Shown here: positions 2,725 through 31,306 of the stretch, one piece after another | Layout of the letters: each line of letters begins with the position of its first letter | Position numbering within the stretch: the first letter of the stretch is position 1 | Source of the DNA: Candidatus Rifleibacterium amylolyticum | GTDB lineage: Bacteria; Muiribacteriota; Ozemobacteria; Ozemobacterales; Ozemobacteraceae | Direction: 5' to 3' | Assembly: GCA_009917695.1 (NCBI GenBank) | Contig: JAACJG010000007.1 | Coordinates: forward strand, 1 to 64,000 | DNA: 64,000 nt | The notes under the pieces: generated by a model | The model's input: the letters and a program-made list of their open reading frames with translations, nothing else | Told to the model about the DNA's origin: nothing | Databases searched by the model: none | Translations under genes and position numbers: made by a program

Positions 2725-5700
2725 ATGAGCAATGATACAGCCAACGAACCCCAGGGCTTTATCGCCGGCACCGTCAGAGCATTTCTGACCGGGCCGCTGT
2801 CGATTCTGCTGATAGTGTTCGCCGTTATCGCCGGAAGCATGGCGATTTTCATGACTCCACGCGAAGAAGAGCCACAGATCGTCGTGCCGATGGTCGATAT
2901 CTATGTCGTTTTTCCTGGCCATTCGCCGCGGGAAGTAGAAGAACTGGTCACGCGACCACTCGAAAAACTGATGTGGCAGATCGATGGCGTCGAGCACGTT
3001 TACTCGATGAGCCGACGCGACCAGTCGATGGTCACAGTTCGCTTTTATGTCGGGCAGGATCGCGACCGCGCCATGGTCAAGATCCGCGACAAAATCGACG
3101 GCAACAGGGACATAGTGCCACCGGGCGTGCAGAACTGGATAGTCAAACCAGTTGAAATAGATGACGTGCCGATCGTAACCCTCACCCTGACATCGCCGGA
3201 AACCAGCCCGTCAGAACTGCGCCGCATCGCGGAAGAAGCCGAAGCCCGCCTCGCCGGAGTGCGCAATGTATTCAGATCAGAAATTCATGGCGGCTATCGG
3301 CGCGAGTTCAGAATCGAAGCCGACCAGACCCGTATGCAGGCTCTCGGCATCTGTTTCACCGATATATTCATGGCAATTGCCGGCAACAACTATACTGCCG
3401 ACAGCGGACGCATTATCGAAGGCGACAACAGCATGCGCATTCTCGCCGGCAACTCGATCAAATCAGCGTCTGAGATCGCGAGAATTCCGATCAGATCGAA
3501 CGAAGGACGCGCTGTCTACATCGAAGACGTAGCCCAGGTTCTCGATACGGTTAACGAACCCGACTGGTATCACCACTCGACCTGGGGCGATGCGGCAAAC
3601 CGCGATAATTCAGGCGAACGTCACCCGGCCGTCACTCTTTCCTTCAGCAAGAAAAAAGGAACGAACGCCGTCGATGTCGCCCGCGAAATCATCGCCGAAG
3701 CCGAAAAGCTCAAGGGCAAAGTAATTCCACCCGAAGTCGACATGATCGTCAGCCGCAATTACGGCGAAACCGCCAACGAAAAAGTCAACGAACTGCTGTC
3801 GAGCATGCTGTTCGCCATTCTGACCGTTGTCGGCCTGATGGCCTTCACCATGGGATGGCGCGCCGCCGTGGTCGTCGGCCTGTCGGTGCCGGTCAGCTTC
3901 GCACTGGCCCTGTTCATCAATCTCATCGCCGGTTACACCATCAATCGCGTCACGCTGTTCGCGCTGATTCTCAGCCTCGGCCTCGTCGTCGATGACCCGA
4001 TCACCAACGTCGACAACATTCAGCGCCACCTGCAGATGGGCAAGGAACCGCCCGAAAAAGCCACAGTCACCGCAGTCATGGAAGTCATCATACCGGTCAT
4101 CATGTCGACACTCGCCATCATCGTGTCGTTTACGCCGATGTTCTTCATCACCGGCATGATGGGCCCCTACATGGGCCCGATGGCGATCAACGTGCCGCTG
4201 ACCGTAACCTTCTCAACCGTCTGCGCACTGACCTTCGTGCCCTGGGTTGGCTACAAACTTCTGCAGGGGGTAAAAAGCGATGAAACCACCAGCGATGACG
4301 GCGTGCCGCCCTGGATCAGACGTTTCTACCGCTGGTTGATTTCGCCTTTTCTCAAGAAGCGCAACGCTATTCTGCTGCTGATCGCTATTTTCGTCATGCT
4401 CGGCGCTTCCGGACTGCTGATGCTGTTTCGGAAAGTGCCGCTCAAGATGCTGCCTTTCGACAATAAAGACGAGCTGCAGCTGATCGTCGATATGCCGGAA
4501 GGCTCCTCGTTAGAGCTCACCGACCGGGCCGTGCGCGAATTCGAAAAGTATCTCGCGCGGGTCAACGAAGTAAAAAGCGTGCAGTCTTATGTCGGCATAC
4601 CGGCGCCGATCGACTTCAACGGTCTGGTGCGCCACTACAATCTCAGACGAAACCACAACAATGCAGATATCCGCATCAATCTCGCCGGCAAACACAAACG
4701 CAAGCAGCAGAGTCATGCCATCGCCCTGCGCCTGCGTAACGACCTGACTGCCATCGCCGAAAAATACAATGCCGTGGTCAGTATAGTCGAACTGCCGCCG
4801 GGCCCGCCGGTTTTCTCGACGCTCACCGTCGAAGTCTACGGTGACGAAGACCGCAGCTACGACGAAATTATCGCCGGCGCCGAATTCCTGCAGAAGCAGC
4901 TCAAAGAAGAAGACAGCGTGCATATCGCGCAGATCGACAACATGAACGAAAGCGAGCACGATCGCATCGTCTTTACTCCCGACGTGCAAAAAATCGCCAT
5001 GCACGGCCTCTCGGCCATGTCGCTGCAGCAGGCGCTGACACAGGCGCTCAGAGGCAATGTCGCCGGGGTCGCTCACGTCGCCAACGAACGCGAGCCGGTG
5101 CTGATCAGAATAAGACTGCCGCTGGCCGAACGCAACAATCTCAACCGCCTCAGCGAAATAACTCTGCGCGACCGCTCGGGCAAACTCGTAGCACTCGGCG
5201 AACTCGGCGAATTCAAAATCGAAAAAGAAGAGCAGGTCATTCAGCACAAGAACCTGCGGCCGGTAGTATTCGTCACCGCCGAATGCGTCGGCCGACCGCC
5301 GGCCGAGATCATTTTCGACATGCACCAGCGCCTGCGCGAAAACCCGCTGCCAGCCGGAATCACAGCAGAATGGGCCGGCGAAGGCGAATGGGAAATAACC
5401 GTGCGCGTCTTCCGCGACCTCGGCATCGCCTTCGGTATCGCGCTGATCGGCATTTACCTGCTGCTGGCGGTACAGATGAACAACTTCATCATGCCGTTGC
5501 TGGTAATGTCGGCGATTCCACTCACCATCATCGGCATCGCACCAGGCTTCTACCTGCTCAATCTGCTGGCGGCCGACGTTGTCGGCGGCTACCCTGACCC
5601 GATATTCTTCACTGCTACTGGTATGATCGGCATGATCGCGCTCGGCGGCATCGTCATCAGAAACAGTGTCGTTCTCATCGAATTCATTCAGGAAGCGGTA

Positions 5701-17077: not shown

Positions 17078-20064
17078 GCCGTCAGTCATGGTTCAATAAA
17101 TTTTTCTACTGGTCACTGCTCATGCTTTGCTTCGTAGCACTGCCAGGATTTCTCGTTGCTCTGGGTTTCTTTTATACAGCCTCACAGAATCGCCAGAACG
17201 AGCTGCAACAGCACAGCGAAAAGATCAGAGGCTTCTACCAGAATCTTCAGCAGTTCGCCAACAACGAGGCCTTTTTCTGCAATTACCTCAATCTGACATT
17301 CACAGCCGGCATGTTCAAAAATAATGCTGAAAAAAAGCTGACCAAGAGCGAAATACAGAAAGAACTGGAACAAAAACTCGTGCAGACAAAACAGAAGTTT
17401 GGATTCGAATATGTATTGTATGAGCTCGACAAAGGAATCGCCAGTTGCTCTTTTGTCATGGAAAACAAGCATGACTGGCTGCTGACAATGGATCTGATCA
17501 GCAAGTTTTACATCAGCAACAACGCCAGAGTGAGCGAAGAGGCGTTTCTGGCCAGTGGAAGAATACTGGGGCCACAGTTGAACCTGCTGCATCTCGAAAA
17601 AAGCCGCGACCCGGAAGAGCCGCACCTGGTTTATCCCGACAGCTGTTTTAAAAAACCGATGCTCTGGACAGGAGTCATATCAGGCTTTCAGATTCTGTTT
17701 CTGATCAAACCTGAAAGTCTTGATTCAAGCGATGGTCTGTGGAACCAGGCCGAAGAATTCAGCCACAGTTCACAAGCGCTTTACCGATTTTCCATAGCCG
17801 AAAAGAACAGTTTTCGCCACGCGAAAGTCAGCGAAGATCTTCGCAGTCAGCTCGAAATCGCCTATAAACAACATGAAACCGGAAAGATGTCGCAGATCGA
17901 AACCGAAGACCTGATAGTATTTCCAAAATTCATCAACCACCGCACCACCCTGATCGGCTACCTTGAAAAAAGTCATCTTGGCGGCGGCAACCTGACTCTG
18001 CCGGCAACGCTTGCGACTCTGGCTTTTATTATATTTGCACTTGCCTTTGGCAGATATTCACATGGTCTTATTGTCGGCGACAGACCCGACAATCTTTCTC
18101 TGCGCTGGAAACTGCGTTTTCTGTTTTTCTTCGCCAACGGTCTGCCTTTGATCGTCCTGTTTTTCATCGGTAATGACTACCTCGATCAGAAACGTGACAA
18201 CCTGCTGCGCGAAATGCATGGCAAGGGCATACAGTTCGTGCAGGACTTCGACGAAAAAATCGAAATTGAATACGCCAAAGCTCTGGCATCCAAAAAGACC
18301 GCGACAGATGGACTGCTCGACGAACTTGCCACCCAACCGCTGAACAACGAGTTAATCAAGGATTTTGCCGGAAAACTTTCTAAAAATGCTGACTGGAAAG
18401 TTGTGTTGATCGCCAGCCGCAGCAACGTGATCGGGACAGAAGACGGCATAATTGATGACAAACGAGGGATATATCCACCCGGCTACGACCGGAAAAATGA
18501 TCAGGGCCTTAAACAAAGGGAATACACCAGCAAGGTAGGACAATTCTTTCTCGACAAGATAAATGGCTCGAAAATTTCTGACAAGACTGCTACAGAAATC
18601 GAAATGCTCCTCGAATCAGTAACTCAGAAGCCTATGGTGAATTTCATTTTTGATATGCTGCGAAATCGTGGCAACTTTATCGACTGGGGCTTCGGCCGCA
18701 ATATACATCCATCTATTCTTGACACCTTCAGCCTCAAGAATTCAGGCACAGCTGACTACTTCTTTATCGCAACAATTCGTCGACTGACTTTTCAATTCGA
18801 TTTTCTCAAAAATTATATTCCTCAGGCGAATCGCAACAAGCTTGGCCTGCGCATAATCGCCGTGCACAGCAACCGCTTTTCGGTTCCAAACGAAGCTTAC
18901 CAGGACCATAACATCAGACAGTTCGCCGGCACTCTCACCACCTATCCAGGCGACGAAATCAAGTTTCTGACCTTTGACGGCGTTGAATATCTGGCCATGG
19001 GGTTTGAAGGCAAATTCATCAAAGAATACAAGCTGATCGGCCTGTATCCGCTTGAAAACATCGACAAAGTCATCGGCCATCAGAAAACGCAGCTGATAAC
19101 ATTCGCTCTGCTCAGCCTGCTGATGACTCTGGTTCTTTCGCAGGTTCTCAGCCAGAGTTTTCTGGTGCCGTTGCAGCTCTTGACAACCGGCGCCAAAGCT
19201 ATTGAAAGCAAGAATTTCAAACATCGTCTGCCCGACCTTGGCCGTGACGAATTCGGTTCGATGGGCGGCATATTCAACCATGTCATGATCGACCTCGAAG
19301 AGCTCTCGGTTGCCGGCGCCATTCAGGAACAGCTCCTGCCACAGCAGCAGATCGAAACCGGCTGTTTCAGTCTTTATGGCCGCAGCATTGCGATGGGCGA
19401 ACTTGGCGGCGATTATTTTGACCACATACAGGTAGCCGATGACCGGTTCAGCGTTCTGCTTGGCGATGTTGCCGGACACGGCGTCGGTGCAGCTCTGATC
19501 ATGGCCATGGCCAAAGCCGGGATCATTCAGTCTGACGAACTGCTCGATAAGCCTCTGGCTCTGATAGAACGTCTGCACAGCCTTATCTATGCGTCCAAGA
19601 CCAAAAAGCAGAAGAAAGTCATGACCTTTCAGTATCTTTGCGTCAACTCGCAGACAGGCTGTGGCATATATGCAAACGCCGGCGCCTGCTCACCGATGAT
19701 AATTCGCCGAGAACGCAATGAAGTCGAAGAACTTACCCTGGCCGGAGCCGCGCTTGGAGCGTTTAAGAAGGCTAATTATTCTGAAATCGAAATTGTGTTC
19801 GAGCCCGGAGATGCAATTGTGTTTTATACCGACGGTATCGTTGAAGCTCGCAACAGCAGCGGCGAAGAAATGGGCTACGACAATCTGAAAAAGCTTCTTG
19901 CCGCCAGCTGGAACGAAGACGCTGAAATTTTCTACAACAACATTTATCAGGGCTATATGGATCACCTCAAAGGCGAAGGGGCACAAGACGACCTCACCAT
20001 GGTCATACTGGTCTTTACCGGAAAGCAACAGCAAAAGCCAGAGTCTGAGCATGAAACAGCTTGA
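17074..20064 (+). CDS. Receptor phosphatase B2, partner of A2
   Basis: Type B member of 996 residues, starting at the ATGA overlap with A2. TMs lie near 9-32, 308-328, 348-368 and 674-693. The first sensor region includes the LGPQLNLLHL signature. The second has WGFGRN, a motif shared in variant form by all B members and absent from A members. The PP2C domain has GGDYFDH, GDVAGHGVGAAL, TDGIVEARN and AQDDLT; the NAGH His is Ala (A871). Its last 14 bases overlap the start of A3, so pairs 2 and 3 are also physically linked. Confidence 0.9.
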   Translation: MSRQSWFNKFFYWSLLMLCFVALPGFLVALGFFYTASQNRQNELQQHSEKIRGFYQNLQQFANNEAFFCNYLNLTFTAGMFKNNAEKKLTKSEIQKELEQKLVQTKQKFGFEYVLYELDKGIASCSFVMENKHDWLLTMDLISKFYISNNARVSEEAFLASGRILGPQLNLLHLEKSRDPEEPHLVYPDSCFKKPMLWTGVISGFQILFLIKPESLDSSDGLWNQAEEFSHSSQALYRFSIAEKNSFRHAKVSEDLRSQLEIAYKQHETGKMSQIETEDLIVFPKFINHRTTLIGYLEKSHLGGGNLTLPATLATLAFIIFALAFGRYSHGLIVGDRPDNLSLRWKLRFLFFFANGLPLIVLFFIGNDYLDQKRDNLLREMHGKGIQFVQDFDEKIEIEYAKALASKKTATDGLLDELATQPLNNELIKDFAGKLSKNADWKVVLIASRSNVIGTEDGIIDDKRGIYPPGYDRKNDQGLKQREYTSKVGQFFLDKINGSKISDKTATEIEMLLESVTQKPMVNFIFDMLRNRGNFIDWGFGRNIHPSILDTFSLKNSGTADYFFIATIRRLTFQFDFLKNYIPQANRNKLGLRIIAVHSNRFSVPNEAYQDHNIRQFAGTLTTYPGDEIKFLTFDGVEYLAMGFEGKFIKEYKLIGLYPLENIDKVIGHQKTQLITFALLSLLMTLVLSQVLSQSFLVPLQLLTTGAKAIESKNFKHRLPDLGRDEFGSMGGIFNHVMIDLEELSVAGAIQEQLLPQQQIETGCFSLYGRSIAMGELGGDYFDHIQVADDRFSVLLGDVAGHGVGAALIMAMAKAGIIQSDELLDKPLALIERLHSLIYASKTKKQKKVMTFQYLCVNSQTGCGIYANAGACSPMIIRRERNEVEELTLAGAALGAFKKANYSEIEIVFEPGDAIVFYTDGIVEARNSSGEEMGYDNLKKLLAASWNEDAEIFYNNIYQGYMDHLKGEGAQDDLTMVILVFTGKQQQKPESEHETA

Positions 20065-22975
20065 TCATAGTGGCGGAGTCAGCAAAATTCCGACCCGGCT
20101 GATTTATATTTTCTGCTTTCTGATCTTTCCGTTATACATAATTTATTCGGGACTCGATCACCTGCATCTGGTTAAAACCGGTGTTATCAGACAAAACAGT
20201 CTCAACACCATGCGCAGAAACCTTGAACAGATCGAACAATACAGCAGTCGTTCGCAGTATCTCCATCTGCTCCTCAAAAAGATTTTTGACGACACCCAGG
20301 CAGCGGCAAATCCTCAAGAACATCTGCGCCATAATATCGAGAATCTCAAACAACGCTATCCCGGAGATTTTGAATTCATTGTCTGGAATGCCGACGGCCA
20401 GGTTATTCAGGCGCTGACCGACCGCAAAGGGTTCAACTACATACTGACCAGGCTTTATGCAGTGCTGGCAGAAGTGGCTGTCAGCATGACCAACGACCGA
20501 CAGACCAATATCAAAGAACTGTCTTTGGTACAGGATAATCTGGCACTTATCAGAAGGTATCTGGGCAAAATTTTTCTGCCCGAACATCTCAACCTACCTT
20601 ATCTTGCCGGAAAAAAGGCCGGGCCAGTGTTGACCGACTTCGGCAGCAGCTTCAATTCTGTCTGGTATCAGATCGGCGAAAAAATCAGTTTTTTATGCTT
20701 TATCAGCGACAGAATGCTGAAACAACATAACGGACTGATGCGCATAATCGAAGTCTTGAACCGACAGAATCCTGATTTTATCAATGGCTACACACTGAGT
20801 CCAGATATTGCCAGTCCGGTTACGCCACTGCCAAACCAGTATCTGCCAGACCTGTCGCGCGCTCTGGCCGAGTTCGAGAATCTTTCTGACCAGGTTTTCG
20901 AAAACGACCGCCTGCTGATCGTAATCGATGTAGCCCAACCCGGAGTCAGAAGTTTTTCGATGGTCGAAAAAAAGCCATCGGTCTGGTCACGGCAAATTCT
21001 TGTAGAGCAGCGTTTTACGGTGATTGCCACATTGCTGGTTATCTTTCATATTCTTCTCTATTTCCATCTCACTTATCGCGTTTCTTTCATTTCGATCAGA
21101 TGGAAACTCACCGGATTATTCATACTGGCCAACCTGGCGCCACTATCGATACTGGCATTCATCGCGCAGGATTATCTCAGCAACATGAGGGTCTCGCTGC
21201 GCAATGAGCTTCAGGCCGATCTCCTGAGACAGATACGCGGTTTTGACATGCGCTATTCTCAGATAAAAACTGATATTGCCGGCAAACTCAATGATTATTT
21301 CGCAAAAATAAATCAACTGCCGGAATCAGAAAAATTCTCAGCCAGTAAAATCGAAGAAATCAAAGATTTTATCAGGCCATTCAAGGCAGTCGAAGCCTAT
21401 CTCATCGACACCCGTGGCGATCTGACTTTCAAGGAACACAGAGTAACGAAAGACGGCAGAAAGAGTGCGAGTTTTATCGCGCAACTGGGCGAAGCGATTC
21501 TAAAATTCAACAATGGCATACTGATCAGCCGCAGCAAATCCGATATTTTCAGCGCGTTGCTTTCGCCTGACAACGCCGAATTCATCAGAGATTCATATCG
21601 CCTCGCCGGTCGCATCACCACGGTAAATCTTGGTAATCTCAGTAAAATCAGTTACTGGTACATTTTTGGCGACCGCAGAAACTACCGTAACACGCACATT
21701 CTCATGATCATCTGGGACAACGACCGTTTTCAGGAGCACTATATCGAACAGTATTTTGCCAGTGCCCAAAAGAACCCGCTAAATGCTCAGTTTATCGCAC
21801 AAAGAACCGATGCTGGAAGAAGCTGGCCAGAGAGGAACACCATTCCACCGGCAATCAATAAAGAATTCGTCAGAGCTTCAGGCTTTCGCGACAGTCATTC
21901 GGGAAGTTTCAACCATGCAGGAGAGACAAAAATTTTTGCATGCGCCCGTGGCCGCAATCTTGACCACATGATGCTGGCTTTTGTCTGCCCACAAGCCACG
22001 ATCGAAAAACGTGTCGATCGAATACGCCTCGGAATGGTGGCAGGAGCCCTGGTCAGTCTGCTTCTGACAATTGTTATCGGGCAGGCTCTGTCTACGCAGT
22101 TTCTTAAACCAATACATCTGCTGGGTGAAGGAACCATGGCTATCGGAGCCCGCCGCTTCAGCCATCGTATTCCGGCTGGCGACGAAGACGAATTCGGGCA
22201 CCTCGGCAGTGTTTTTAACCGGGTTATCGAAGGCCTCGGCGAGCTGGAAGTAGCGCGTATCGTTCAGGAAAATCTCCTGCCCGGCAATCATTTTAAAGCC
22301 GGGCCATTCACACTCTACGGAAAAAGTGTAGTCATGACGACTCTCGGAGGCGACTACTATGACTGCTTCGCAATCGATGCCGAGAACTGGGGCGTGGTCA
22401 TTGGTGACGTTGCCGGTCATGGCGTATCAGCCGGGCTGATGATGGCCATGGCCAAGGCCGGAGTTCTTATGGCTTCTGATGAAGAAAAGAGAGACCCGGC
22501 GGCCATGGTAAAGCGCCTGCATCAGATCTTTTTTGCTATCAAGAACGAAAAACTCAAGCGAATGATGACCCTGCAATATTTTGTCTTCAATCTGAATACT
22601 GGTGTTTTCAGATTTGCCAATGCCGGGCACTGTTTTCCGGTGGTTGTCAAGCCGAAGACAGCTACAGCTGAATACATAGAGCACGTTGCCACCCCTCTGG
22701 GAATCGGAAGAAAGCCCAAGCATCTCAACTACGAATTTGTCATCGACAAAGGCGAATCACTGGTGCTTTATACCGACGGCATCGCCGAAGCCAGCAATGC
22801 CGAAGGCGAGGGCTTTGGCTACGAAAGATTGCGGGATCTTCTCGTTACCGCATACGACGCTGATCCAGAAGTTTACTACCGTCATATCTATGAAGCCTAC
22901 ACTCAGTGGATAGTTTCAGCTGACGATGACCTGACACTGATAGTGATCAACCGACAACATGAACATGAAACCTGA
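20051..22975 (+). CDS. Receptor phosphatase A3
   Basis: Type A member of 974 residues. The ATG at 20051 is chosen because it gives the same N-terminal layout as its paralogues (short tail, then TM1 near 18-36). A longer in-frame reading from 19898 lies inside B2 and lacks any family similarity. TM2, TM3 and TM4 lie near 322-340, 352-372 and 661-680. LGKIFLPEHLNLP marks the first sensor region. The phosphatase has GGDYYDCF, GDVAGHGVSAGL, TDGIAEASN, DDDLT and NAGHC (H860). A ribosome binding site is not obvious inside the B2 end, which suggests reinitiation. Confidence 0.88.
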   Translation: MKQLDHSGGVSKIPTRLIYIFCFLIFPLYIIYSGLDHLHLVKTGVIRQNSLNTMRRNLEQIEQYSSRSQYLHLLLKKIFDDTQAAANPQEHLRHNIENLKQRYPGDFEFIVWNADGQVIQALTDRKGFNYILTRLYAVLAEVAVSMTNDRQTNIKELSLVQDNLALIRRYLGKIFLPEHLNLPYLAGKKAGPVLTDFGSSFNSVWYQIGEKISFLCFISDRMLKQHNGLMRIIEVLNRQNPDFINGYTLSPDIASPVTPLPNQYLPDLSRALAEFENLSDQVFENDRLLIVIDVAQPGVRSFSMVEKKPSVWSRQILVEQRFTVIATLLVIFHILLYFHLTYRVSFISIRWKLTGLFILANLAPLSILAFIAQDYLSNMRVSLRNELQADLLRQIRGFDMRYSQIKTDIAGKLNDYFAKINQLPESEKFSASKIEEIKDFIRPFKAVEAYLIDTRGDLTFKEHRVTKDGRKSASFIAQLGEAILKFNNGILISRSKSDIFSALLSPDNAEFIRDSYRLAGRITTVNLGNLSKISYWYIFGDRRNYRNTHILMIIWDNDRFQEHYIEQYFASAQKNPLNAQFIAQRTDAGRSWPERNTIPPAINKEFVRASGFRDSHSGSFNHAGETKIFACARGRNLDHMMLAFVCPQATIEKRVDRIRLGMVAGALVSLLLTIVIGQALSTQFLKPIHLLGEGTMAIGARRFSHRIPAGDEDEFGHLGSVFNRVIEGLGELEVARIVQENLLPGNHFKAGPFTLYGKSVVMTTLGGDYYDCFAIDAENWGVVIGDVAGHGVSAGLMMAMAKAGVLMASDEEKRDPAAMVKRLHQIFFAIKNEKLKRMMTLQYFVFNLNTGVFRFANAGHCFPVVVKPKTATAEYIEHVATPLGIGRKPKHLNYEFVIDKGESLVLYTDGIAEASNAEGEGFGYERLRDLLVTAYDADPEVYYRHIYEAYTQWIVSADDDLTLIVINRQHEHET

Positions 22976-25964
22976 AAACAACAGCCTGACTTCGCGCACC
23001 GGCCGGCTTCTGCGCTGGCTGCTGGCCGCTCTTTGTCTGACCGGTGTCCCGGCGGCACTGGTATTTTTTGCGGTTCACCGCTTTTACACGGTCAGTGAAG
23101 ATGAATTGAAACTTGCCGTTAAAGCACAATTGCAACGCGCCGCCAACGAAGCCGCCGAAACCGTGGATCAGGAAGTTTTCTGGAGTCGCCTTTTTTTCGA
23201 ACAATTCAGCACTTTTGAACGCGAAAAGACTCAGGCAGACAGCATACTGGCATGGCTGAAAAGCGTTCAGAGTCAGTTTCCCGGCTCATTTGAATTCATC
23301 GCCTGGTCGCGCGACGGCAGGGAACTGGCTAAAACTTTCACCGACCGCTACAGCACAGATGACTGGCGGCACGTCTTCTGGTATTTCAGCGCTCTGCCAG
23401 GCTTTCAGGTTGGCTACGAACGACACGAACACGATGTTGCCAGGGTGCGCGACATTCTCGGGCCACAGCTGATTCATGCGATGATGGCCGGTCAGAATGA
23501 CCCAGAGCGCTATTCACTGGCCTGGCTCGACAGCTCTTTCGAACGGCCGCCGATAACCAGGTATTTCATTTCGACAATAGCTGTAGTCATACGCTACGAC
23601 CTTGAAAAGCTCAGGCAGATGACAGGCCTGACACATACTCTACAGAAATTTGCTGACAGCAGCCGGTTGCATCTGGGAATTGTCAGTGTCGAACAGCAAC
23701 GACCGCAAATTCTCTGGAAAAGCGGCGAGATCAAAGGAGAGCTGCTGGATTTCCAGACTTTTGCGAAATGCGAGAACGAATCGCGCAACTTTCTCGAACT
23801 GCCACAGCATTACCTCGGCTATATCTTTCTCGCCCCCGGCAAACGAATTTTTGCGCTGGCGGCAAAGAAATACGACAGCCCGGCTATTTTCTGGCGCTCA
23901 CTGCTGGCGGCAGCATGCTATCTGACATTGATGCTGCCGTTTCTGGTCTACACCTGGAACACCATGGTTGCCGGGCGGCCGGGCCGGGCCAGAATAAAAA
24001 CCAGGCTTGCTTTTCTGTTTTTCTTCGCCTGCGGCATTCCGCTGCTGGCAATGATCGTGGTCTCGCACGAACACAACCTGCAGATGCGTCGCACCATGAT
24101 TGCCGAAGCCCATCAGAGCGCAACCGACATGATCCTCAGCTTCGACCGGCGTTTTCTCTCATTTCTTGACAACGATGCAGTATCGCTCGACCGCCTGCTC
24201 GACCAATGGGCCGACGGAATCAAGAAAAGCGGCGGGGTTAATGATAAAATCGCAATACAGATAAATCAGTTGCTCGCATCCTTTACTGTCAGCAATTACT
24301 ATGTTGTCGCCAGCGACAGCAAACAGGTGATCGACCGGGGCGAGGTTTTCGTGCTCAAGGGCAACCTCGATTCAGCCAGCATCGATCGCGAAAAAAGCAA
24401 GATAAAACGTGAAATCACTACAGTTGTCGAGAGCGACATCATAACCGCCAATCTGGTTGGCAAAAAGGTCATGAGCGATCTGAACCGCGTCGAAATCTCA
24501 GGCCCGATCCTCAGTAAACTAGAAATCATCGCCGAATCACTGCTGCAGCAGACCATGCTGGAAATGACCAACACCGTCATCGGCAACCTTGGCTCGATCA
24601 ACCACTGGGGCTTTGGCCGCCTCAACGATCTGTCGCTGATGAAACTGCTCTCGGTCAATAGACCGGGCATCGTCGATTACGCTGTAATGATATTCTGGCG
24701 CCCGATATTCTCACAAACGCGATTTATCAACAAGGCAGTCCCTCTTGTCAACCGCAACCCACATGGCTACAGGCTGATTGTTCGCAACCGCTTCAGCGAC
24801 TCTTATCTGCCGGAAATTGACAATCAGGCTGCAGATCTGCGCAAGTTCGCCAGCCGTCTCGGTGCCCGCCCGACAGAAGAAATCGAACAGATCAGCTTCG
24901 CCGGAGAAGATTATATTGCAGTGGGCTTCAATGGCAGTAATGTCAGACTCTTTCAGGTTATGGCGCTCTACCCGCTGCGTAATATTGACCGGGTCATCGA
25001 CCAGCAGCAGACCCAGCTGCTTCTCTTTGTTCTGTTCTGTATCATTCTGGCGGCAAGTCTCGCGCAGATCCTCGCCAAAAGTTTCATTGAGCCTCTGCAC
25101 GCATTACGCAGCGGCGCACTCGCCATCGAAAACCGCGAATTCAGCCATCGTATTCGCGGCGTCGGCAAAGACGAATTTGGCGAAATCGCCGGTATATTCA
25201 ATGAAATAATGGTCGGCTTCAGCGAACTCGAAGTTGCCAGAATCGTTCAGGACAGCCTTTTTCCGCCACCAGGCTTTGCGCACGGCAATTTTGTCACCTT
25301 TGGAAAAAGCATCAGCATGAGCGAGCTGGGTGGCGATTACTTCGACTTTTTTGCCATCGATGAGCAAAATTTTGCCGTTCTGGCCGGCGACGTAGCCGGA
25401 CACGGAGTTGGAGCGGCTCTGATCATGGCCATGGCCAAAGCCGGAATTCTCAGTTCGACACACCTGCTGGACAGACCGGCAGAACTGATGATGGCGCTGC
25501 ATCGCATGATTATGGCCTCAAAGGGCAGCAACCAGAAAAGAATCATGACTTTCCAGTATCTCTATCTCGACTCACAAAGCGGTCGCGGCCTGTATTCAAA
25601 TGCCGGCGGCTGCTCACCGGTCATGATCAGAGCCACAGACAGATCAGTCAACGAAGTTACCCTGACCGGGCCGGCACTAGGAGCTTTTACCCGGGCAAAA
25701 TACAATGAGTGCCCTGTTGAATTCGGCGACGGCGATGCAATCGTCTTTTACACCGACGGCATCATCGAAGCACGTTCTCCCGCCGGCGGCGAAATCGGTT
25801 ACGATGGCTTCAAAAAAATACTTCAGGCCAGCTACGACACAGACCCGCAGATTTTCTATCAGAACATTTACAGCGCCTATATCAGCCACATCGGCGGCAC
25901 CGATGCCCAGGACGATCTGACCCTCATCGTCACCATCCGCCATTCCGCCGAGAGCCCGGTATAA
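22959..25964 (+). CDS. Receptor phosphatase B3, partner of A3
   Basis: Type B member of 1001 residues, closing the six-gene run. The ATG at 22959 overlaps A3 by 17 bases; a second in-frame ATG at 22965 is equally possible. TMs lie near 17-39, 311-332, 350-370 and 686-706. LGPQLIHAM marks the first sensor region and WGFGRL the second. The phosphatase carries GGDYFDFF, GDVAGHGVGAAL, TDGIIEARS and AQDDLT, with Gly at the NAGH His position (G884). No clear terminator follows. A 24-base copy of the gene's 3' end recurs at 26109-26132. Confidence 0.9.
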   Translation: MNMKPENNSLTSRTGRLLRWLLAALCLTGVPAALVFFAVHRFYTVSEDELKLAVKAQLQRAANEAAETVDQEVFWSRLFFEQFSTFEREKTQADSILAWLKSVQSQFPGSFEFIAWSRDGRELAKTFTDRYSTDDWRHVFWYFSALPGFQVGYERHEHDVARVRDILGPQLIHAMMAGQNDPERYSLAWLDSSFERPPITRYFISTIAVVIRYDLEKLRQMTGLTHTLQKFADSSRLHLGIVSVEQQRPQILWKSGEIKGELLDFQTFAKCENESRNFLELPQHYLGYIFLAPGKRIFALAAKKYDSPAIFWRSLLAAACYLTLMLPFLVYTWNTMVAGRPGRARIKTRLAFLFFFACGIPLLAMIVVSHEHNLQMRRTMIAEAHQSATDMILSFDRRFLSFLDNDAVSLDRLLDQWADGIKKSGGVNDKIAIQINQLLASFTVSNYYVVASDSKQVIDRGEVFVLKGNLDSASIDREKSKIKREITTVVESDIITANLVGKKVMSDLNRVEISGPILSKLEIIAESLLQQTMLEMTNTVIGNLGSINHWGFGRLNDLSLMKLLSVNRPGIVDYAVMIFWRPIFSQTRFINKAVPLVNRNPHGYRLIVRNRFSDSYLPEIDNQAADLRKFASRLGARPTEEIEQISFAGEDYIAVGFNGSNVRLFQVMALYPLRNIDRVIDQQQTQLLLFVLFCIILAASLAQILAKSFIEPLHALRSGALAIENREFSHRIRGVGKDEFGEIAGIFNEIMVGFSELEVARIVQDSLFPPPGFAHGNFVTFGKSISMSELGGDYFDFFAIDEQNFAVLAGDVAGHGVGAALIMAMAKAGILSSTHLLDRPAELMMALHRMIMASKGSNQKRIMTFQYLYLDSQSGRGLYSNAGGCSPVMIRATDRSVNEVTLTGPALGAFTRAKYNECPVEFGDGDAIVFYTDGIIEARSPAGGEIGYDGFKKILQASYDTDPQIFYQNIYSAYISHIGGTDAQDDLTLIVTIRHSAESPV

Positions 25965-26168: not shown

Positions 26169-26213
26169 TTCGCATTTTTTTCGCTTGACATTCGCCTTTT
26201 ATTCGCCTATGAT
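26169..26213 (+). promoter_or_regulatory. lexA promoter with four TTCGC repeats at 11-bp spacing (candidate SOS operator)
   Basis: A near-consensus sigma-70 promoter is present: TTGACA (26185-26190), 17-base spacer, TATGAT (26208-26213). TTCGC occurs at 26169, 26180, 26191 and 26202, exactly 11 bp apart, covering the region upstream of -35 through the spacer. Written as tetramers this is GTTC-N7-TTTC-N7-ATTC-N7-ATTC, reminiscent of the GTTC-N7-GTTC LexA box of Alphaproteobacteria. LexA autoregulation through this array is inferred. Confidence 0.7.
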
Positions 26214-26246: not shown

Positions 26247-26870
26247 ATGACACCAGATCCACTAACGCCAAAACAGCGCAGCGTTCTTGATTTTGTTCGC
26301 CGTTTTTTTGCCGAATGGGGTTACGCCCCCACTATCGCTGAGATCTGCGACGGCCTCGGTCTGGCATCAACCGCCACTGTCCACAAACATCTCAAGATTC
26401 TCGTCGACAAGGGACACATCGACACCCTGCCGCGGCGGTCACGTGGCCTGTCGGTAAAACCACAAACGGTGAGTGTCAGCAGCAGTGTCGAAGTGCCGAT
26501 GCTCGGCCGGGTTACCGCCGGGCAGCCGATTCAGATCAACGAGATTCCCGAAACTGTCAATCTGCCCGAATCGATGATTGGCAAAGGCGAAACCTTCGTT
26601 CTCGAGGTACGCGGCGAATCGATGATCGATGAGGCAATCAAGGACGGTGATCTGGTTATAGTCGAGAAGCGCAATACTGCCAACAACGGCGACATGGTCA
26701 TCGCCTGCATCGAAAACGAAGAAGTGACTCTCAAACGCATTTATCGTGAGGGCAACCGGGTTCGCCTGCAACCTTCCAACCCGGCCATGCCACCGATAAT
26801 CATCGAAAACCGCGACGTAACCATCAAGGGCATAGTAATTGGAGTACTGCGCAAATATCGCCGTCACTGA
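26247..26870 (+). CDS. lexA: LexA repressor
   Basis: The 207-residue protein has an N-terminal winged helix-turn-helix (PTIAEICDGLGLASTATVHKHL) and a C-terminal S24 peptidase domain. The Ala-Gly self-cleavage site (A91-G92), catalytic Ser (GESM, S125) and Lys (LKRIY, K163) are all visible. LexA represses SOS genes and is inactivated by RecA-stimulated autocleavage. It is the first gene of an operon with dinB. The promoter and candidate operator just upstream support autoregulation. Length and motifs are standard. Confidence 0.97.
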   Translation: MTPDPLTPKQRSVLDFVRRFFAEWGYAPTIAEICDGLGLASTATVHKHLKILVDKGHIDTLPRRSRGLSVKPQTVSVSSSVEVPMLGRVTAGQPIQINEIPETVNLPESMIGKGETFVLEVRGESMIDEAIKDGDLVIVEKRNTANNGDMVIACIENEEVTLKRIYREGNRVRLQPSNPAMPPIIIENRDVTIKGIVIGVLRKYRRH

Positions 26871-26880
26871 GGTTAAAGCC

Positions 26881-28056
26881 ATGCGTAGGCGCATCGCCTG
26901 TATAGATCTCGATGCTTTTTTCGTCGAAGCCGCTCTCAAGGTACACCCCGAGTTTCGCGGCAAACCGGTTGCGGTTGGCAGCACCGGCAGTTTTGCCATA
27001 GTCTGCTCGGCTTCATACGAAGCCCGCAAGTTCGGCATTAAAGCGGGCACTCCTCTCTGGATAGCCCGCCAGAAATGCCCCGACCTCGTCTGGCTGCCGA
27101 CCCCCGGCAACATCATTGAACTTTCGAACGCCGTGCACGAGCGTCTGCGCGAATTCTGCCCGCTGGTCGAACCTGCTTCGATCGATGAATTCTATCTTGA
27201 TTTCACCGGTTGCGACCGCATTTATCCAACCAATCTGGCGATTGCCGAGCGTATCGTCAAAGAAATCGCCCGCGACCCCGGCCTGCCAACCACCATTGGT
27301 TTCGGCACCAACAAACTCATGAGCAAAATCGCTTCGAGCCTGGGCAAACCCACCGGGATTCTCGAAATACTGCCAGGCGAAGAAAAGGCATTCGTATCGC
27401 ATCTGCCGCTCGACGAAATTCCCGGTATCGGCAAACGCACCGTACCGGTGCTCAATTCAATGGGTGTCTACGAAGTTACCGATATTCTTCGCATTCCGCT
27501 GACCGCATGGCAGGCGGCCATGGGCAAAGTTGGCGAATATATCTTCAACTGCGCTCAAGGCTTAGGCGAAACCTGCGTGATTTCTGCTGAAAACAAGCCT
27601 GTCCGCAAAAGCATATCACACAGTGTCACTCTGCCGGAAAATACCGGTTCGCGCTCTTTGCTGCTGAACTACCTGTCGCACCTGGTCGAAAAGACCGTGT
27701 ATCGTTTGCGCAGCGAGCAGTTAACCTGCGGTTGTGTCAGTGTCAGACTGCGCTTTGCCAATTTTTCCAGCGATGGGCATTCGGTCAAAATCAACCGCAC
27801 CAATGATGACCGCGATATTTTTCAGGCGGCAGTCGCTCTTTTTAACCGCACCATCAAACCAGGTATCAAGGTCAGACTCGTCGGCGTGCATCTCAGCTCA
27901 CTGCAACCAGGCGCTTTTACGCCCGATCTTTTTGACTCGCTGCTGCCGGAATACCGACGCGGACTCAACGATGTTCTCCAGATCATCCGGGCAAAATACG
28001 GCTTCAGCTCGATTTTGCGCTCACGCTCGGCACTAAGGATAAGCAGATATGACTGA
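26881..28056 (+). CDS. dinB: DNA polymerase IV (Y-family translesion polymerase)
   Basis: The 391-residue protein contains the Y-family palm motifs IDLDAFF (D9, D11) and SIDEFYLD (D102, E103), the YEAR motif of the fingers, and a helix-hairpin-helix stretch (LPLDEIPGIGKRT). The little-finger domain follows. It extends primers across damaged bases at the cost of accuracy. The ATG at 26881 follows TGAGGT and lies 10 bases after the lexA stop, so both genes should be induced together; an earlier in-frame start would overlap lexA and add a foreign tail. Confidence 0.95.
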   Translation: MRRRIACIDLDAFFVEAALKVHPEFRGKPVAVGSTGSFAIVCSASYEARKFGIKAGTPLWIARQKCPDLVWLPTPGNIIELSNAVHERLREFCPLVEPASIDEFYLDFTGCDRIYPTNLAIAERIVKEIARDPGLPTTIGFGTNKLMSKIASSLGKPTGILEILPGEEKAFVSHLPLDEIPGIGKRTVPVLNSMGVYEVTDILRIPLTAWQAAMGKVGEYIFNCAQGLGETCVISAENKPVRKSISHSVTLPENTGSRSLLLNYLSHLVEKTVYRLRSEQLTCGCVSVRLRFANFSSDGHSVKINRTNDDRDIFQAAVALFNRTIKPGIKVRLVGVHLSSLQPGAFTPDLFDSLLPEYRRGLNDVLQIIRAKYGFSSILRSRSALRISRYD

Positions 28057-28359: not shown

Positions 28360-28390
28360 ATCTGTGAGGCCGGGTCTCCCGGGAGGGCTC

Positions 28391-31306
28391 TTGCGCACAC
28401 AGAAAAACAGCCGCATCGGCATGTTTCTGCAATACACCGGGCTGGTGTTTTGCTTTTTTGTCTTCCCCTTTTTTGTATTCAATGCCAGTCTCGGCAGTCT
28501 GCTCGCACTAAGACTCGAAAATCACCGGCATGAGGTCTTTCAGCAACTGTCTGACCGTCTGAAACTGCTGATGCCTTACAAAGACGAACGGCTATATTAC
28601 CACCTGATGCTGCAAAGGCTGTTCGATATTGCCAGGCAGCAGCCAGATCCGGTCACTTACCTGGAAAAAGCCATAGCCCGGCTCAAACAGAGACATCCAC
28701 AGCGTTTTGAATTCATCGTCTGGAACAACGCCGGAAAAGTTGTCGAAAAACTTACCGACGAAAAACGCTTTCGTTTTGTTATCAACAGGCTTTACCACGT
28801 CCTCAGAGAAGTCACCGCTCACATCGCTTCTGGCGACTCGGAAGAAATCAAAAAGCTCGCCGTCATAAAAGACAACATCAATCTGATAAAACACTTCCTC
28901 GGGCGAATATTTATCCCCGAAACTCTTTCACAACCGTACCTCGCCGACGACCAGTCTTCGCTGATCCTTTCTGACTACGGAAAATCACGTCCATACTTCT
29001 GGTATCATACCGATGATAAAATCAGTATGCTATGTTTCATCGCATGGGATGCCATAAATGACAACCGCGGGATAACCAGTCTTGTCAGGGCGGCAAACCA
29101 GAATGACGAAGACATCTGTATCGGATTTGCTTCTTTACACGATCTTGCCAATCCTTATCTGATCAAAAACTTCCATATCACCAACGAAGTGGTTCTGGCT
29201 CTTGCCAAATACGAAAACTCATCAGAACCGACAATCGAAACTGCCAACGCACAAATAGTAGTGCAGATGCTGAACCCGAACACACGCATATTTGCGCTGA
29301 AACTAAAAAATCACGAAATATATTCCCCCGAAACAATTCGCCTCAGAATTACTATCCAGGCGATTGTTTTGTATCTGCTGACCGGCCTGCTGCTTTACTT
29401 CAATTTCAAAGTGCGGCAGGCGTTTTTCTCGATCAGATGGAAGCTTCTGCTGCTTTTTGTATATGCCAACATTGCTCCACTGACCGTTCTTGGCGCCATA
29501 TCCTATGATTATCTGCAAAATCGCAAAGTTGCGCTGCGCAATGAATTTCAGCTCGAATCTGCGCGCCTGCTGCGCGAACTCGACAGCAGATTCGTAGTTC
29601 AAAGAGAAAACTATGCGCGCCAGTTGAATGCAATAATTGCGCGCAGCAATGCCGAATCCGGCAGCAATATGCTCACCCCCAGCCAGATAAAGCAAATCAA
29701 AAGCGCAGTCATCGACTACAAGCCTTCCGAGGCATTTCTGGTAGATCGCAATGGCGTCCTGCACTTTGCCATCAGTACAGATGGCAAAAACGTCAGTCAT
29801 TCGACGTCTTACGTAAAAAGACTGGCAGATGCAATTCTCAAGTTTCATAACAGAATTATCGTCACTGCTGACAAATCTGATGTTCTGACGAAAATCGCCG
29901 ACCCCGAGCACACGGATTTTGTGCGCAACTCTATTCGAGACAGTAACAAGATCTGGCCAATGAGCATAGGCGACAGCACGAAAATCAGCTACTGGAGTAT
30001 TCTTGGCAATCAAAGTGAATACGTCAGCAATTACTTTTTACTCTTATTGTGGGATGAAGAAGAGTTTCAGAAAATCTTCCTCGACCAGTATTTTTGCCGA
30101 TTACCGCGCAGAAATCTTATGGCCGGCGCCTATGCCAGAACTGACGACAGCCGACAGATTTTTCCAGACGCCAGCGAAACCGGCAGTGAACTTGCCAGCT
30201 TTCTTCGCGATGCTGCACATACCAGCGGCAATACCTACAGCAGCCTTCAATTTGCCGGAAAGGCCCATCTGGTAACGGGATGGCGCGGAAAAAACATGAA
30301 TAAAACATGTTTTGCCATCGTCTATCCGACCAGCGAAATCGATGCAGAGATCGCCGAAATTACCGGACACATGCTCGCCGGCGCGACGTTGAGTATAATT
30401 CTGACCATCATCATTGCACTGGCGGTAGCTCGTCAGTTCCTCGAACCAATAAGGTCATTAAGCACCGCAGCAACAGCGATAAGCGTTCATGATTATCGAT
30501 ACCGCATAGAGATTGCCGACAAAGATGAATTCGGCCATCTTGGGCAGGTCATGAACCGCATGATCGAAGGACTTGGCGAACTTGAAATTGCCAAAGTCGT
30601 TCAAGAGAGCCTTTTTCCGGAAAAACAGCCAGCTTTCATGCCTTTTGATATTTTCGGCAGAAGCGTGGCGTCAACAACTCTGGCCGGCGACTATTATGAC
30701 TTTATCGAAATCGACGACAACCGCATAAGTATAATGATTGGCGATGTGGCCGGGCAGGGAATTGCAGCAGCCCTGATCATGGCGATGGCCAAGGCCGGCG
30801 TTAAAATGGCGAGCAACGACGAGATGCTAGACGGCGCAAAATTTGTCGAAGAACTGCATAAAATACTTTACAGCTTTAAAGACGGTCAGCGCAGACGCAT
30901 GATGACATTTCAATATCTGCTGCTCGACAAAACGACTGCCAGTGTTGACATTTACAATGCCGGACATTGTTTCCCACTGCTTATCGACAGTAAAAGCAGC
31001 CAGTTCAGATATCTGGAAACAGCCAGCAAACCACTGGGAGTTGATGAATCACCAGATTACAGCAAACATTCAGTCTCGTTGCAGCCAGGCCAGGCGCTGA
31101 TTTTGTACACTGACGGAATCAGTGAAAGGCAGAATGAAGCTGGCGAAACTTTTGGTCATGATCGACTGGCACAGGCTGCCCTGCAGAACTACCAGAACAA
31201 TTCGGAAAGATATTATCATGCGCTTTATCAGGAATATCTTGACTGGTCCGGCAAAAACGGCGGCGACGACTGCACGATGATTGTAGTCGTTTACCCAGAA
31301 AGTTAG
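28391..31306 (+). CDS. Receptor phosphatase A4
   Basis: Type A member of 971 residues. A TTG start is proposed because GGGAGG lies five bases before it and it gives the family N-terminus; a GTG at 28364 is in frame but lacks such a site. TMs lie near 10-33, 317-335, 345-367 and 661-682. LGRIFIPE and FEFIVWNNAG mark the first sensor region. The catalytic core shows two departures: AGDYYD instead of GGDYYD, and GDVAGQG instead of GDVAGHG. The metal-binding Asp residues, TDG and GDD remain, and NAGHC (H859) is kept. Activity may be altered. It is separated from pair 3 by the lexA operon. Confidence 0.88.
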   Translation: MRTQKNSRIGMFLQYTGLVFCFFVFPFFVFNASLGSLLALRLENHRHEVFQQLSDRLKLLMPYKDERLYYHLMLQRLFDIARQQPDPVTYLEKAIARLKQRHPQRFEFIVWNNAGKVVEKLTDEKRFRFVINRLYHVLREVTAHIASGDSEEIKKLAVIKDNINLIKHFLGRIFIPETLSQPYLADDQSSLILSDYGKSRPYFWYHTDDKISMLCFIAWDAINDNRGITSLVRAANQNDEDICIGFASLHDLANPYLIKNFHITNEVVLALAKYENSSEPTIETANAQIVVQMLNPNTRIFALKLKNHEIYSPETIRLRITIQAIVLYLLTGLLLYFNFKVRQAFFSIRWKLLLLFVYANIAPLTVLGAISYDYLQNRKVALRNEFQLESARLLRELDSRFVVQRENYARQLNAIIARSNAESGSNMLTPSQIKQIKSAVIDYKPSEAFLVDRNGVLHFAISTDGKNVSHSTSYVKRLADAILKFHNRIIVTADKSDVLTKIADPEHTDFVRNSIRDSNKIWPMSIGDSTKISYWSILGNQSEYVSNYFLLLLWDEEEFQKIFLDQYFCRLPRRNLMAGAYARTDDSRQIFPDASETGSELASFLRDAAHTSGNTYSSLQFAGKAHLVTGWRGKNMNKTCFAIVYPTSEIDAEIAEITGHMLAGATLSIILTIIIALAVARQFLEPIRSLSTAATAISVHDYRYRIEIADKDEFGHLGQVMNRMIEGLGELEIAKVVQESLFPEKQPAFMPFDIFGRSVASTTLAGDYYDFIEIDDNRISIMIGDVAGQGIAAALIMAMAKAGVKMASNDEMLDGAKFVEELHKILYSFKDGQRRRMMTFQYLLLDKTTASVDIYNAGHCFPLLIDSKSSQFRYLETASKPLGVDESPDYSKHSVSLQPGQALILYTDGISERQNEAGETFGHDRLAQAALQNYQNNSERYYHALYQEYLDWSGKNGGDDCTMIVVVYPES

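Follow-up and report, generated by a model that had tools for sequence, protein, structure and literature searches.

A four-copy TTCGC direct repeat over the lexA promoter of Candidatus Rifleibacterium amylolyticum as a very probable LexA operator, with counterparts in several phyla

The four TTCGC repeats over the lexA promoter of Candidatus Rifleibacterium amylolyticum are very likely an autoregulatory direct-repeat operator of LexA, to which LexA would bind and through which lexA would be induced in the SOS response. We draw this reading from sequence comparison, because the repeats are conserved in the family, recur in the promoter of a radical-SAM gene, have counterparts before lexA and some recA genes in other phyla, and covary in one base with the recognition helix of LexA. 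The earlier note on the window (the whole stretch of DNA that was analysed, 64,000 nucleotides long) had suggested an unusual multi-site LexA operator at this place, and the comparative evidence supports that suggestion well.

All four copies are exact, lie on the plus strand and follow one another with a period of exactly 11 bp (Table 1). They are separated in turn by ATTTTT, the TTGACA of the promoter and CTTTTA, with a single C between the last copy and TATGAT, so that the 17-bp promoter spacer is taken up by copies 3 and 4 and the other two copies precede the -35 element. The lexA ATG is found downstream of TATGAT, at 26247. Both the exact 11-bp spacing of the copies and the presence of a near-consensus promoter agree with the earlier note. 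When the four-copy pattern was searched with up to 3 mismatches, three overlapping matches were found at the array, versus 0.02 expected from dinucleotide shuffles of the window. Throughout the 5.39-Mb genome, at least three TTCGC copies at 11-bp spacing occur in this array only (2 overlapping matches; none in the reversed control), and a crude estimate that assumes independence gives 0.0002 quadruples per genome. Pairs of TTCGC are common (40 genome-wide, versus 16 for the reversed control) and nearly all fall inside ORFs, and pairs alone are therefore weak evidence.

Table 1. Features of the lexA locus in the window and of the second operator-like site
Feature	Position	Strand	Basis and remarks
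TTCGC copy 1 (GTTCGC)	26169..26173	+	sequence; least conserved copy, 65-94% per base (17 family loci)
TTCGC copy 2	26180..26184	+	sequence; abuts the -35 element on its upstream side; 71-100% per base (17 family loci)
-35 element TTGACA	26185..26190	+	sequence; register kept in the family
TTCGC copy 3	26191..26195	+	sequence; within the -35/-10 spacer; 94-100% per base (17 family loci)
TTCGC copy 4	26202..26206	+	within the -35/-10 spacer; core operator pair with copy 3; 94-100% per base
-10 element TATGAT	26208..26213	+	sequence; 17 bp past the -35 element; TATAAT/TATATT in the family
lexA (LexA DNA-binding domain and S24 peptidase)	26247..26870	+	TIGR00498 215 bits, cut-off 111; PF01726, PF00717
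Y-family DNA polymerase (IMS)	26881..28056	+	starts 11 bases past the lexA stop
TIGR03916 radical-SAM and TIGR03915 pair	L071 (G000:C3:213000-220000), 3447-5661		composite operator-like site

The LexA encoded in the window has the recognition helix STATVHKHL, which contains K47. It also has an Ala-Gly cleavage site (A91-G92) and a Ser/Lys dyad (S125 and K163), all invariant in 12 relatives; the counterparts in the LexA of E. coli are Ala84-Gly85, Ser119 and Lys156 (PMC3091678). The Y-family polymerase gene, which is found downstream of lexA in many relatives too, probably shares one operon with lexA and would be co-transcribed with it. By gene layout, the translesion polymerase expected of an SOS regulon thus stands behind the lexA promoter. 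The lexA operon is flanked by three paralogues of approximately 1,000 aa with HAMP and SpoIIE phosphatase domains (19898-22975, 22959-25964 and 28364-31306). The named relatives belong to Candidatus Riflebacteria/Ozemobacteraceae and are known from metagenome assemblies.

Within the family, TTCG-N7-TTCG was found before lexA in all 17 promoters. The only other strong spacing peak in these promoters is at 18 bp, where a third in-register copy would fall. When the family lexA loci were aligned on the promoter, a 29-bp core was approximately 90% identical and the flanks approximately 47%; conservation over the 17 loci is approximately 99% for copies 3 and 4, 92% for copy 2 and 76% for copy 1. We would like to note that no full-length LexA was found in three Riflebacteria listed as more than 90% complete (G004, G010 and G021), and the loss of lexA in some members of the group may be real. 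A promoter-like sequence, TTGTTATTCGCCTTTTGTTCGCCTATCTT, lies at a contig end of another genome without a detected lexA (L099; G005:C146:83-111, minus strand).

The genus has one other conserved promoter-embedded pair, upstream of a TIGR03916 radical-SAM gene that is followed by a TIGR03915 gene, both annotated as putative DNA repair. This site combines a direct pair in the same register as at the lexA promoter with a second, opposed pair over the gene start, and the composite is retained in G002, which is of a different genus. In the congener G021, for which no lexA match was found, the radical-SAM gene is present without the box, a single case from a fragmented assembly. Outside long ORFs of the window's genome, exact TTCGC-N6-TTCGC occurs in the lexA and radical-SAM promoters and at three unlikely places (L032, L062 and L065). 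The pair at L062, also seen in G019 (as L144), lies near the start of a carbamoyltransferase-like gene, where it sits at the ribosome-binding region, and was judged a chance or non-SOS occurrence. Other candidates were likewise set aside: a pair on C27 (TTCGCCTTTTATTCGC) that matches copies 3 and 4 exactly lies within a gene, and pattern matches in relatives (L106 and L114) are coding or repetitive.

The earlier note had proposed looking for the repeat before other SOS genes. This is borne out by the putative radical-SAM repair operon but not by recA, which has no TTCGC pair upstream throughout the family. The regulon in the family is therefore either unusually small or includes a recA site of an undetected kind; a reduced Riflebacterial regulon of the translesion polymerase and the radical-SAM repair pair, without recA, is suggested. 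Elsewhere, three genomes with the label Deltaproteobacteria or Polyangiaceae have TTCG-N7-TTCG in the recA promoter, a link between the box and SOS that does not depend on lexA autoregulation.

In outgroups, 11 of the 39 lexA promoters contain TTCG-N7-TTCG, versus 0.09 expected (at most 2 in 500 base-composition shuffles), and in nearly all 11 the dyad lies directly after or overlapping a -35-like TTGAC. The classical GAAC-N4-GTTC was found in 13 of the 39. Other families of Riflebacteria are diverse in this respect, with TTCGG direct repeats in f4, a TTTGC/TTCGC variant in f7 and an inverted GAAC-N4-GTTC in f5. The lexA promoters of f8, also in Riflebacteria (L265 and L266), have an inverted repeat of another kind, based on TATCGAAA/TTTCGATA, and residue 47 of their LexA is Y. 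In Gemmatimonadota (L320-L349 and L445-L479), most direct-repeat lexA promoters with an E47 LexA have two TTCGG-N6-TTCGG pairs, usually approximately 24-27 bp apart, an arrangement that we describe as a double operator. Myxococcota (L350-L444) have two LexA types, of which the common one, with the helix STNGVNDHL, lacks the direct repeat and the other, of the VHKH form, has it.

The LexA proteins that have the box share a recognition helix of the form [TS][VIM]H[KER]H. Across the pooled 230 LexA loci, TTCG-N7-TTCG was found in the protein's own promoter for 101 of the 112 with this helix, versus none of the 118 others; the remaining 11 of the helix class lack the exact dyad within 200 bp upstream, and two of these (G032 and G033) have the TTTGC/TTCGC variant. 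As the helix rule was derived from the first set of loci, it is fairly tested only by the second. The dyad count has its peak at a spacing of 7 bp, with further peaks at multiples of the 11-bp period.

The repeat unit common to the relatives is TTCG followed by a fifth base, and it is this base that tracks the protein. K47 of the window LexA aligns with Glu45 of E. coli LexA, a DNA-contacting residue (PMC3091678). Within 58 box-bearing LexAs, those with E47 go with TTCGG (G at base 5 in 105 of 106 half-site readings) and those with K47 go with TTCGC (90 C, 14 T, 2 A and no G), a half-site common to two overlapping pairs being counted twice. Residue 47 alone, among 207 positions of the window LexA, separates C from G at base 5 in these 58 proteins. 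A prediction of base 5, set down beforehand, held on unseen genomes when 130 further loci were fetched from Myxococcota and additional Gemmatimonadota to test it. The box was present in 26 of 26 E-type loci, with G at base 5 in all 104 readings, and in 16 of 19 K-type loci, with 22 C, 7 T, 3 A and 2 G in 34 half-site readings, and it was found in none of the 83 loci with any other helix type, STNGVNDHL included. When mapped on the best LexA tree, K/E and C/G switch together four times, and in only one case are the branches strongly supported, so that phylogenetic independence is limited and Fisher values calculated per locus overstate it.

The mechanism that we consider most likely is as follows. 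A LexA dimer would read two head-to-tail half-sites, NTTCGC-N5-NTTCGC, placed 11 bp or approximately one helical turn apart, a spacing at which both DNA-binding domains would sit on almost the same side of the double helix. As copies 3 and 4, the core pair, occupy the space between the -35 and -10 elements, bound LexA would block RNA polymerase. Copies 1 and 2 lengthen the array and probably admit a second dimer or alternative registers, which would strengthen or broaden occupancy and tighten repression. Upon DNA damage, RecA filaments would trigger self-cleavage of LexA at A91-G92, and the operon of lexA and the Y-family polymerase would be released.

It is possible, although we lean the other way, that only the core pair functions as the operator, with copies 1 and 2 left as relics or serving as weak accessory sites; this would be compatible with the repeats being a LexA operator. 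The fall in conservation from copies 3 and 4 to copy 1 fits such an arrangement, as does the fact that two relatives (L039 and L048) and most outgroups outside Riflebacteria keep little beyond the core pair. Nevertheless, copy 2 is in register in most family members and copy 1 across the genus, and both Gemmatimonadota and the repair operon retain a second pair, albeit in other layouts. We find it scarcely credible that no repressor is involved and that the repeats simply belong to a strong core promoter or arose by chance as a low-complexity array; the abundance of TTCGC pairs in the genome and the position of copies 3 and 4 in the promoter spacer could be read in that way, but the recA promoters of the family have no such repeats, and the dyad keeps to its preferred spacings and is maintained where the flanks diverge. 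It is also very unlikely that the repeats are bound by some regulator other than LexA, such as a dedicated activator or a second S24 repressor, through which lexA and the repair operon would be controlled. The genome does hold another S24-domain protein (G000:C4:207833-208216), and the case for LexA as the binding protein is built from sequence; however, base 5 and a DNA-contacting residue of LexA vary together, and helix type predicts the box across phyla, which argues against a separate regulator, as such a protein would not follow the recognition helix of LexA.

A further question is whether the box is simply that of Alphaproteobacteria, GTTC-N7-GTTC, which is found over lexA and SOS promoters (PMC8565304, PMC3091678) and to which the earlier note had likened the repeats. 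The likeness is sound for the architecture, in that both are direct repeats over the lexA promoter with two half-sites 11 bp apart, and the half-sites overlap in TTC. It does not extend to the box itself. Only copy 1 here reads GTTC, GTTC-N7-GTTC occurs in 1 of the 17 family lexA promoters, and the half-site is NTTCGC, with the C at base 5 as part of it and matched to LexA residue 47. The box described here also differs in having up to four contiguous copies and in being found in different phyla. The recognition helix is STATVHKHL, in contrast to SKSGIHRLI in Sinorhizobium and Cereibacter (both with GAAC-repeat promoters), and the LexA tree places the two alphaproteobacterial LexAs apart from the direct-repeat LexAs, on a long branch. 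As the GTTC half-sites and the alphaproteobacterial helix are both absent, we do not assign the Riflebacteria box to the alphaproteobacterial one, and its origin from that box by descent or transfer is improbable.

We consider it probable that the LexA of the family belongs to a previously undescribed class, present in Riflebacteria, Gemmatimonadota, part of Myxococcota/'Deltaproteobacteria', Krumholzibacteriota and Sumerlaeota. Members of the class would recognise head-to-tail TTCG(C/G) half-sites, with K or E at residue 47 setting the last base as C or G, in tandem or opposed arrays of up to four half-sites. A literature search that covered few subscription papers retrieved no description of a TTCG(C/G) box for Riflebacteria or Gemmatimonadota, and a cross-phylum class of direct-repeat LexA is likely new. 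The site is readable from the protein, with helix type indicating the direct repeat and one residue indicating one base, and the specificity switch is thus testable by a single substitution. This would provide a usable model of the SOS operator for several phyla known mainly from metagenomes.

Among known systems, Balneolaeota offer another, independent direct-repeat LexA site outside Alphaproteobacteria, with the motif TTACACATATTTTWTACATA and a regulon that includes a radical-SAM protein and recA (PMC7739468). The TACA copies of that motif are also 11 bp apart, and a radical-SAM gene is common to both systems, but the half-sites are unrelated, and recA belongs to the Balneolaeota regulon whereas the Ozemobacteraceae family has no recA box. 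The LexA box of the Gram-positive type, CGAAC-N4-GTTCG (PMC3091678), shares the letters GTTCG with the half-site described here. It is, however, an inverted rather than a direct repeat, and residue 47 of the corresponding LexA is R, H or S in place of K or E; GAAC-N4-GTTC was found in Chloroflexi as well as in Riflebacteria family f5. Drastic change of the LexA site between bacterial groups, including switches between palindrome and direct repeat, has been recognised as an unsolved problem (PMC8565304, PMC7739468), and as direct- and inverted-repeat LexA sites both occur within Riflebacteria, the switch in layout can be studied inside one phylum.
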